Source: Geoalkalibacter sp. (GTDB taxonomy: Bacteria > Desulfobacterota > Desulfuromonadia > Desulfuromonadales > Geoalkalibacteraceae). From it: a stretch of 34,498 nt of DNA. The stretch is from the NCBI RefSeq assembly GCF_030604225.1, contig NZ_JAUVWH010000015.1, positions 1-34,498 on the forward strand, read 5' to 3'. A program made the position numbers and the translations under genes. This document shows positions 28,214-31,032 of this stretch, in pieces. Position 1 is the first letter of the stretch. Every line of letters starts with the position of its first letter. The notes under the pieces are model-generated. The model was not told where the DNA came from. It made no database searches and saw nothing but the letters and a program-made list of their open reading frames with translations.

Positions 28214-29275
28214 ATGAATGTTGAACAAATGAAACTGGTGGTGCGCGAGATTCTCACCCGCACCGATCTGACCCCCTGCATCGTCGGTCATCGCGGCGTC
28301 GGCAAATCGGCGGGCATCCTCCAGGTGTGCCGCGAGGCGGGGCTCAATTACGTGTCCCTGCGCCTCGGGCAGATGGAAGTCGGCGACTTGGTCGGCATTC
28401 CCTACCGCGAGGGCGAGGTCATGCGCTGGTCGCGGCCCTCCTGGTGGCCCCTGGACAGCGACGCACCGACGGTGGTGCATTGCGACGAGCTCAACCGCGC
28501 CCAGCAGGAGGATACCCTGCAGGCCATCTTCCAGTTCGTCGAACCTCCCGCCGCGGGCCGCCGTCGCGCCCTGCACACCCATCAGCTCGATCCGCGCCAC
28601 AAGGTGGTGGTGACCATCAATCCCCCCGACGGCACCTACCAGGTGGCGACCCTCGACCGCGCCTTGCTGGATCGTATGGTAATGGTCTACGTGGAAACCG
28701 ATTACTCCTGCTGGGCACGCCATGCCGAGAAAAACAGCTTCGACGCCGACGTGCGCCAGTTTCTCGCCGCTCACAGCCAGATGCTCGCCCGCCAGGGCAG
28801 TCCCCTCGACATGCAGATGGAGCCCAGCGAGCGCGCCTGGGAGATGGTCAGCACCCTGCGCCGCAACTGCCGCTTTCCTCGTGACCTGGAGATGGAAGTC
28901 TACGCCGGCATCGTCGGCAACGAGGCGGCCGCCCTGTTCCTGCAATGGTGCACGGACAATCGCGCGCGGCCGGTGAGCGCGGACGAGGTGCTCGACGGCT
29001 GGGACGAGGTTGAAGAGCGGGTGCGCGCCCAGCGCGACGACCTGCAAGCGGCCACCCTCAACCTGCTGGTCGCGCGCCTGCGCCACCAGCCGCGCCTGAG
29101 CCCCGCCCAGGAGCGCAACCTGGTGGCCTACATCGACGTGCTGCCGCGCGACCTGCGCTTCGGCCTGGTCAAGACGCTGCTCAAGATTCCCGCCGTGGCC
29201 GCGGTGCTGAGCAAGGACGAGTACGATGCGGTGGTGCTTGACGCCATCGCGCAGATCAGCCGCGAGGCGAGTTGA
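28214..29275 (+). CDS. MoxR-type AAA+ ATPase
   Basis: 353-residue AAA+ protein of the MoxR-like class, which usually acts as a chaperone remodelling a partner with a VWA domain. Walker A is GHRGVGKSA (about 25-33), Walker B with the class-typical DELNRA is in VVHCDELNRAQQED, sensor 1 is TINPPDGTYQVATLD, and LLDRMVMVYVE carries the arginine-finger-type Arg. The C-terminal part is helical, with no named domain recognised. The ribosome-binding site is weak. A VWA gene lies 79 bases downstream, matching the usual MoxR-VWA pairing; the client and process are unknown. Confidence 0.88.
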   Translation: MNVEQMKLVVREILTRTDLTPCIVGHRGVGKSAGILQVCREAGLNYVSLRLGQMEVGDLVGIPYREGEVMRWSRPSWWPLDSDAPTVVHCDELNRAQQEDTLQAIFQFVEPPAAGRRRALHTHQLDPRHKVVVTINPPDGTYQVATLDRALLDRMVMVYVETDYSCWARHAEKNSFDADVRQFLAAHSQMLARQGSPLDMQMEPSERAWEMVSTLRRNCRFPRDLEMEVYAGIVGNEAAALFLQWCTDNRARPVSADEVLDGWDEVEERVRAQRDDLQAATLNLLVARLRHQPRLSPAQERNLVAYIDVLPRDLRFGLVKTLLKIPAVAAVLSKDEYDAVVLDAIAQISREAS

Positions 29276-29354: not shown

Positions 29355-30557
29355 ATGAGAGACGTTCAACCTTCAGCCAAGGACCAGCATCTTCTTGAAG
29401 ATGCCGTCATCCGCCTGCTCAAGCGGCGGCCTTTCTACGGCCACCTGCTGCTCAATTTTCAGCGGCGCTTTGGGACGGGGGCCTATCCCCTGGGGGTGAC
29501 GCTGGTGGGTGGGCTGCCGTTGCTCGAAGTCAATGCGACGCGCTTTGGCGAGTATTGCGGCGCGGAGCAGGAGGCGCTGCTCGAGCACTGCATCAAGCAT
29601 GTGCTGCATCTGCACATGGCGCGGCGCAAGGAGCGCCATGCCCTGACCTGGGATGTCGCCTGCGATCTCGCCATCAATCCCGGAATTGCCTCTCTGCCCG
29701 GCGGCGCGCCGCTGCCCGGGCGCTATCATCTCGACGAGGGCCTGGCCGCCGAGCAATATTACGCGCTGCTGTCACGGCCTTTCGCCATGGGCAATTTGGA
29801 AGGCGAGGGCTTGGGTGATGCATCGCGGGAAAGTTCCGGCGACGTCGGGGTGGGGAACACCCGGGATTCCGCCCAAGACGCTGCCCCTCTCGATGATCAC
29901 CAGCTTTGGGCCGAAGCCGATGCCGTGCCCCTGCGCCTCGCCGAGCAGATCGTGCGCGGGCTGGTGCGGGAGGCCTGGCGCAAGAGTGACGGCGAAATCC
30001 CCGGCGATCTCAAGACCCTGGTGGCGGCCATGCTCGCCCCCGCGCCCATTCCCTGGCGGCAGGTGCTGCGCCAGTTCGTCGCCATCGCCGGGCGGGTGGG
30101 CCGCCAGAGCACCTGGAAGCGCGAGCATCGCCGTTTTGCTCACGCCACGCCGGGCCAGCGCAAGCGCCGCCGCCTCAACCTGCTGGTCGGCATCGATGTC
30201 AGCGATTCCACCAACATCCAGGCCCTGCGCGAAGCCTTCGCCGCCGAGTTGGTGCGCATCGCCCGCGGTCGCGACACCCTGCTCACCGTGCTCTACGCCG
30301 GCAGCCGCATCCAGAAAATCGCCAGTTTTCGCGGCTGCGAGGCCGTGGCCGAAGTCTTCCACGGCGGCGGCTTCACCGATCTGCGCCCGGTGTTCGACTA
30401 CGCCCGCACTCTCCATCCCCGGCCCGCCGCCGTCATCTATCTCACCGACGGCTACGGCGAGACACCTTCGCAAATGGAATTCCCCACCCTCTGGGTCTTG
30501 ACCAAGGAGGGCCAGAAGCCGGCAGATTGGGGCGTGGAGCTGCGGCTTGACACCTGA
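29355..30557 (+). CDS. DUF2201-like metallopeptidase/VWA protein with HCxxH in place of HExxH
   Basis: 400 residues, two parts. The N-terminal domain resembles the putative metallopeptidase domain of DUF2201 proteins. The expected HExxHxxxxH reads H78-C79-I80-K81-H82 with H87 at the right spacing, so the three His ligands are kept but the catalytic Glu is Cys. A polar low-complexity linker (about 150-190) follows. The C-terminal VWA-like domain has a complete MIDAS: DVSDS (281-285), T341 in GGFTDLR and D365 in YLTDGYG. The start is the ATG at 29355 with a poor ribosome-binding site. The preceding MoxR ATPase is the probable partner; the role is unknown. Confidence 0.82.
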   Translation: MRDVQPSAKDQHLLEDAVIRLLKRRPFYGHLLLNFQRRFGTGAYPLGVTLVGGLPLLEVNATRFGEYCGAEQEALLEHCIKHVLHLHMARRKERHALTWDVACDLAINPGIASLPGGAPLPGRYHLDEGLAAEQYYALLSRPFAMGNLEGEGLGDASRESSGDVGVGNTRDSAQDAAPLDDHQLWAEADAVPLRLAEQIVRGLVREAWRKSDGEIPGDLKTLVAAMLAPAPIPWRQVLRQFVAIAGRVGRQSTWKREHRRFAHATPGQRKRRRLNLLVGIDVSDSTNIQALREAFAAELVRIARGRDTLLTVLYAGSRIQKIASFRGCEAVAEVFHGGGFTDLRPVFDYARTLHPRPAAVIYLTDGYGETPSQMEFPTLWVLTKEGQKPADWGVELRLDT

Positions 30558-30584: not shown

Positions 30585-30640
30585 TGATAACGGACCAACA
30601 AACAATGACAAGTGACCCATGACAACTGACAAGTCCCTAA
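30585..30640. repeat. Heptad array 2 (after the VWA gene)
   Basis: Degenerate 7-nt period held in phase over eight units: TGATAAC 30585, GGACCAA 30592, CAAACAA 30599, TGACAAG 30606, TGACCCA 30613, TGACAAC 30620, TGACAAG 30627, TCCCTAA 30634. GGACCAA is also present in array 1 in the opposite orientation. The array runs up to and possibly into the start of the next ORF, depending on which ATG is used. Confidence 0.7.
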
Positions 30641-30645
30641 CCCCT

Positions 30646-31032
30646 ATGACCGAAGAATCCGTCCGCGCTCTGCTCGAAGAGGCCGGGGCGCGGGTCGCCT
30701 CGCGCGGCGGACGCACCGACAACTACGGCGCCCCGCGCGAATTCTCCTTCGAGGTGCGCGCCCTGTTTCCCTCCGGCCTCGGCCTGCAATTGACGGCCCG
30801 CCAGTACAACTACCGCGATCCCTGGGAAGCGGGTGGTCGCGTCAACGACCTGGTGGATGTCGCCCTGCTGCGCGACGGCGCCTATTCGCCCCTGCCGCGC
30901 GGCTACGAGTGGTTTCAGGGACGCGACGAGGAGGAGGGCGTGGATGAGGAGACCCTGCGCGCCATCATCGCCGTGGTCCGCGACCTCAATCCCAAGATTT
31001 TCAAGCTGCAGGAACTGACCGGGGATTTTTAA
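30646..31032 (+). CDS. Hypothetical protein downstream of the MoxR-VWA pair
   Basis: Unrecognised 128-residue soluble, acidic protein without signal peptide or membrane segment. The sequence suggests an alpha/beta fold: a helical start (ESVRALLEEAGARV), beta-rich middle (FSFEVRALFPSGLGLQLTARQYNYRD) and acidic helical end. The ORF track starts at the ATG at 30619, but that codon lies in the heptad array; the ATG at 30646 gives the more natural start MTEESVRALLEE. Neither has a good ribosome-binding site. Codon use matches neighbouring genes, so it is probably real. Position suggests it may serve the MoxR-VWA pair. Confidence 0.65.
   Translation: MTEESVRALLEEAGARVASRGGRTDNYGAPREFSFEVRALFPSGLGLQLTARQYNYRDPWEAGGRVNDLVDVALLRDGAYSPLPRGYEWFQGRDEEEGVDEETLRAIIAVVRDLNPKIFKLQELTGDF

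Follow-up and report, generated by a model that had tools for sequence, protein, structure and literature searches.

The DNA analysed here (the window) is a stretch of 34,498 nucleotides from Geoalkalibacter sp., and its feature of interest is a gene for a protein of 400 amino acids that combines a metallopeptidase-like domain with a VWA domain. The features to be discussed are the following:

28214-29275, + strand: gene for a MoxR-like AAA+ ATPase of 353 aa, the partner gene upstream of the DUF2201 gene (PHROG, motifs, co-occurrence)
29355-30557, + strand: gene for the 400-aa protein, DUF2201_N metallopeptidase-like plus VWA-like DUF2201 (Pfam)
29583-29615, + strand: degenerate metal motif E77-H78-C79-I80-K81-H82-x2-H85-x-H87, without the catalytic Glu79 (sequence and class alignment)
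29652-29678, + strand: D100-V-A-C-D104-L-A-I-N108, the helix after the motif (conservation)
30195-30449, + strand: VWA stretch with MIDAS-type residues D281-x-S283-x-S285, T341 and D365 (conservation)
30619-31032, + strand: gene for a 137-aa protein, downstream of the DUF2201 gene (homologues downstream in clade loci)

Both domains of the 400-aa protein exceed the curated Pfam cut-offs: residues 12-265 match DUF2201_N (PF13203, E 3e-20, 73.4 bits versus a cut-off of 23.2) and residues 277-398 match VWA-like DUF2201 (PF09967, E 5.5e-14), which is the domain order that Pfam gives for its 'putative metallopeptidase domain' DUF2201_N and VWA-like DUF2201. No other PF13203 match occurs in the own genome. 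The codons at 29583-29615 of the reading frame that starts at 29355 (gag cac tgc atc aag cat gtg ctg cat ctg cac) specify residues 77-87, EHCIKHVLHLH (E77, H78, C79, I80, K81, H82, V83, L84, H85, L86, H87), as the preliminary description had read them. Its statement that the spacing of the three zinc-type His residues is kept also holds, since H78-x3-H82-x4-H87 is the spacing of the canonical family, in which the first two His are present in 83 of 83 sequences and the third in 82 of 83. The H-x3-H-x4-H motif is followed by a helix of the NxAxDxxIN type, and the hallmark of DUF2201_N is thereby present, with the first Asn changed to Asp in 75 of 80 clade members. The MIDAS residues D281, S283, S285, T341 and D365 are intact and, gaps aside, invariant in all classes of homologues described below.

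Close relatives of the 400-aa protein (54-81% identity) were taken from Desulfuromonadia, and further members from this group were added by region and by a family search, which found PF13203 in 184 of 277 Desulfuromonadia genomes. Canonical relatives were collected from other families of the phylum, plasmids and viral contigs, and are mostly viral; 536 of 600 candidate viral stretches encode relatives, and 80 were kept. When the viral contigs were searched with a query from the window's clade, no relative was found. The sequences were divided into an HExxH class (n=83), the EH class to which the window protein belongs (n=80, or 81 distinct Desulfuromonadia homologues together with the deviating clade member L171), and an AHL class (AHLVMHVAHFHP; AHLVMH) of 17 sequences. 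Genome G535 has one HExxH-class and one EH-class member (L068 and L179), and a viral member, L098, has HSVMH instead of HExxH inside an otherwise canonical branch.

In the HExxH class Glu79 is present in all 83 sequences, residue 77 is as a rule Ala, Cys or Val and never Glu, Asn100 occurs in 82 of 83, and His85 in at most one. A Glu after the first His, by which an active HExxH metallopeptidase would be recognized, is found in none of the 81 clade members, so that the missing Glu of the preliminary description is a property of the whole clade. The three ligand-type His residues (78, 82 and 87) are invariant throughout this clade, and sporadic HE..H sequences elsewhere in the protein occur in only 4 of 81 members, around residues 182 and 332, two positions unrelated to each other, with none shared. 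Beyond what had been described, Glu77, His78, His82, His85 and His87 are each fixed in 80 of 80 EH members, and Asp100 is present in 75 of 80, where canonical relatives have Asn. Compared with Pfam DUF2201_N, the window's clade thus shows EHxxxHxxHxH in place of HExxH and Asp in place of Asn100. Across the clade and canonical sets H78, H82, H87, R90, D104 and N108 are invariant, as are D104 and N108 over 47 aligned sequences. By these alignments, position 79 of the EH class is freed from the constraint that acts on it in the HExxH class, and the domain is likely a pseudo-peptidase across the whole of this old clade.

Trivial causes for the missing Glu79 were also considered. A pseudogene or a sequencing error was ruled out by the existence of a conserved clade with open frames, and a chance substitution by the complete lack of Glu79 among the 81 clade members. 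A role as decoy of an active paralogue is unlikely, because there is one copy per genome as a rule and no second PF13203 protein in the own genome; G535 carries one of each kind.

The AHL class has likewise lost Glu79 and gained His85 (16 of 17), but carries Ala77, Leu79 and Asn100, and has neither Glu77 nor Asp100. This second group without Glu79 (L052-L067 and L199, from other Desulfuromonadia genomes; AHLVMHVAHFHPLRR) is located beside a distant MoxR gene. In the phylogenetic tree the EH class, including L171, groups as a single clade with good support, on a branch that is long, and the loss of Glu79 would best be placed in the ancestor of that clade. A first tree placed the AHL class among the HExxH sequences, and a tree in which EH and AHL were held together exceeded the free search by 17.7 log units (p-AU 0.79), so that a single loss shared by EH and AHL is not rejected. 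Convergent loss is also possible, since AHL otherwise resembles the HExxH class, in Asn100 and in several residues on the VWA side.

AlphaFold2 models were obtained with a mean pLDDT of 83.5 for the 400-aa protein and 86.3 for a viral HExxH relative. The order of elements is the same in both: helices, three strands, the motif helix, and a helix with D104 and N108. In the 400-aa model the motif helix comprises residues 69-84, and the motif lies near its C-terminal end. Relatives of the 400-aa protein detectable by sequence were absent from the PDB, where fold searches returned VWA domains only and no match for the N-terminal domain. A search of a viral fold library gave matches to phage metallopeptidase and VWA-like proteins, which largely repeat the sequence kinship.

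The gene upstream encodes a protein that matches PHROG 1297 ('ATPase', E 4e-46) and, weakly and below the cut-off, the Pfam families AAA and AAA_5. Both nucleotide-binding motifs are intact, with GHRGVGKS as Walker A and VVHCDELNR as Walker B, and the patterns GHRGVGK[ST] and xxHCDELNR are found in 63 of 64 clade copies. The putative assignment to the MoxR type is our own reading of these motifs and of the pairing with a VWA protein. The MoxR gene adjoins the DUF2201 gene in most EH loci. In several Geobacteraceae-type genomes (L011, L028, L173, L174 and others) it is located away from DUF2201 and is present elsewhere in the genome. All 11 EH-class genomes that were searched as a whole contain the MoxR gene, unlinked from DUF2201 in ten, and the unlinked copies of those ten show 65-74% identity. 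A MoxR homologue was found in 0 of 13 genomes without DUF2201, using the same query that was positive in EH-class genomes as a control, and the AHL genomes G499 and G576 possess only a distant MoxR. The MoxR ATPase is co-inherited with the EH-class DUF2201 gene.

The third member of this co-inherited set is the 137-aa protein; in almost every EH locus its gene lies close to the DUF2201 gene, on the downstream side. Homologues were absent from all 13 searched genomes that lack DUF2201, and none was found in G499 and G576. The protein gave no family match in Pfam, NCBIfam, PHROG or PADLOC. Some Geobacteraceae-type genomes have about 1 kb or more between the DUF2201 gene and the 137-aa gene. A known defence system was considered for the locus and set aside, PADLOC having given no match.

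We consider it probable that the locus encodes a MoxR-VWA machine for ATP-driven remodelling, whose peptidase domain is now non-hydrolytic and probably serves as a metal-stabilised binding module. The general base of the N-terminal metallopeptidase-type domain would have been lost in the clade ancestor, while His78, His82 and His87, and possibly His85, would still hold a metal. The MoxR-type AAA+ protein would supply ATP-driven remodelling, the VWA domain with its intact MIDAS would depend on divalent cations to dock either the ATPase or a client, and the pseudo-peptidase domain would hold, sense or recognise the client polypeptide but not cleave it. The simplest account is that this domain has turned into a binding or structural module, because the ATPase motifs, the MIDAS and the ligand-type His residues have been kept and only the general base has been lost. 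In its favour we counted the clade-wide loss of Glu79, the retained His set, the intact ATPase and MIDAS motifs, the co-inheritance with the MoxR and 137-aa genes, the single PF13203 copy of the own genome, the grouping as one supported clade, and the order of elements shared with the viral HExxH relative. Counted against it are the chance that the role of base has passed to Glu77 (at i-1), which a crude helix model allows, or to Asp100, and the fold searches, whose PDB hits were confined to the VWA domain. For the 400-aa protein itself we infer metal binding, absence of proteolysis, client binding and a chaperone role, and by analogy the putative machine as a whole may act as a chaperone.

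The residues that are newly fixed in the clade invite other readings. It seems unlikely that Glu77, His78, His82, His85, His87 and Asp100 together form a rebuilt metal site that takes the place of the peptidase site throughout the clade. Such a site would give the MoxR-VWA machine a new metal function other than proteolysis, for instance a client switch gated by metal, or a different catalytic chemistry. It is improbable that the protein is still a hydrolase, a MoxR-regulated metallopeptidase with an EHxxxH motif in which the base has shifted from position 79 to Glu77, or to Asp100. The conservation of these two acids in the clade, and the presence of neither in canonical relatives, would fit such a shift, and a crude ideal-helix model, with a closest approach to the metal of 6.7 Å for Glu77 versus 5.9 Å for Glu79, puts a Glu at i-1 about as close to the metal as one at i+1. 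Such a shift is, however, weakened as an explanation by L171, which has Arg77 and still no Glu79, and by the AHLVMH sequences, since a group without any of the three acids shows that the family tolerates loss of Glu79 with nothing in its place. Furthermore, peptidases of the HExxH type are not known to carry their base at i-1.

Equally doubtful is a rebuilt His-rich metal site (His78, His82, His85 and His87, with Glu77 or Asp100) with its own function, be it structural, sensory or redox; a coordinatively saturated four-His site would be one example. The distribution of His85, present in both classes that lack Glu79 and nearly absent from HExxH relatives, agrees with this, as does the finding that residues 78, 82 and 85 share one face when on a helix. 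In the same helix model, however, His85 comes no closer than 5.6-5.9 Å to a metal held by His78 and His82, and the predicted helix stops at residue 84. Such a site may be a form of the non-hydrolytic binding module rather than a true rival to it, and the alignments favour Glu77, His85 and Asp100 over Cys79 as its components. The suggestion in the preliminary description that Cys79 serves as a fourth ligand or a regulatory thiol is hardly credible: Cys occurs in the window protein and seven other clade members, but the 81 sequences have L 48, C 8, V 8, G 8, A 6, M 2 and I 1 at this position, and C, C, V and G within the window's genus, so that a mostly hydrophobic or small residue, usually Leu, gives Cys no special standing. 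Of that interpretation the pseudo-peptidase part therefore stands, for the clade as a whole, and the special role of Cys does not.

The closest published system is found in group 2.2 jumbo phages, where a MoxR AAA+ protein is paired with a vWA protein that bears an N-terminal metallopeptidase domain; the pair was proposed to take part in virion assembly, in which structural proteins would be processed (PMC7824862). The two-gene logic is the same as in the window, and from the description in that paper the phage proteins would belong to DUF2201. The canonical viral relatives found here resemble the jumbo-phage pair in having HExxH and often a MoxR-like gene upstream. Unlike that pair, the window's clade is without the catalytic Glu, resides on chromosomes of Desulfuromonadia, and was not found among the viral contigs. 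What is new here is this clade-wide, Glu-less variant of the published phage pair. The clade also differs from that pair in having its own 137-aa partner and in lacking a neighbouring DUF3150-like gene, a gene that occurs in phage and plasmid DUF2201 cassettes. Within the limited flanks available, a DUF3150-like gene was seen in 40 of 83 canonical loci (plasmids and many phages) and beside none of the EH (0 of 80 loci) or AHL genes; in one plasmid example the Pfam name was just under the cut-off. On plasmids L231-L234 (Burkholderiales and others) the genes for an AAA ATPase, a DUF3150-like protein and a canonical HExxH DUF2201-VWA protein are adjacent, sometimes near conjugation genes.

Inactive peptidase domains fused to vWA are known from MoxR-vWA ternary conflict systems, e.g. 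VMAP, where they are suggested to bind peptides or to regulate in a dominant-negative way (PMC7159879). The MoxR-vWA core is common to these systems and the window pair, but their inactive domains are trypsin- or caspase-type effectors with other partners, whereas the window locus has no PADLOC counterpart. More generally, inactive metallopeptidase homologues with a substituted HExxH are reviewed as pseudopeptidases that bind or scaffold proteins (PMC11266112); many of these also lose metal ligands, in contrast to the invariant ligand-type His of the window's clade, and the text of the review contains no DUF families. In E. coli, the MoxR ATPase RavA and its VWA partner ViaA modulate a protein complex (PMC10585395). 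By description, this combination of a MoxR ATPase with a VWA partner is like that in the window. To our knowledge, ViaA has no metallopeptidase-type domain.

DUF2201 is essentially unstudied in the literature that was searched. The existence of Glu-containing phage and plasmid relatives next to a Glu-less chromosomal clade allows a non-cutting role of the peptidase domain to be tested, with the co-inherited trio of MoxR, DUF2201 and 137-aa genes as a defined set for such tests. As nearly all Desulfuromonadia members inspected lack the catalytic Glu, the name 'putative metallopeptidase' is probably wrong with respect to activity. The L052-L067/L199 group has the top PF13203 scores of all, 260-341 bits, and the model of that name thus fits a likely inactive group best. 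A further label, 'HNH endonuclease', is attached to PHROG 1314, which matches the 29355-30557 protein over its whole length (2.9e-44), and is probably wrong for this metallopeptidase-VWA family.
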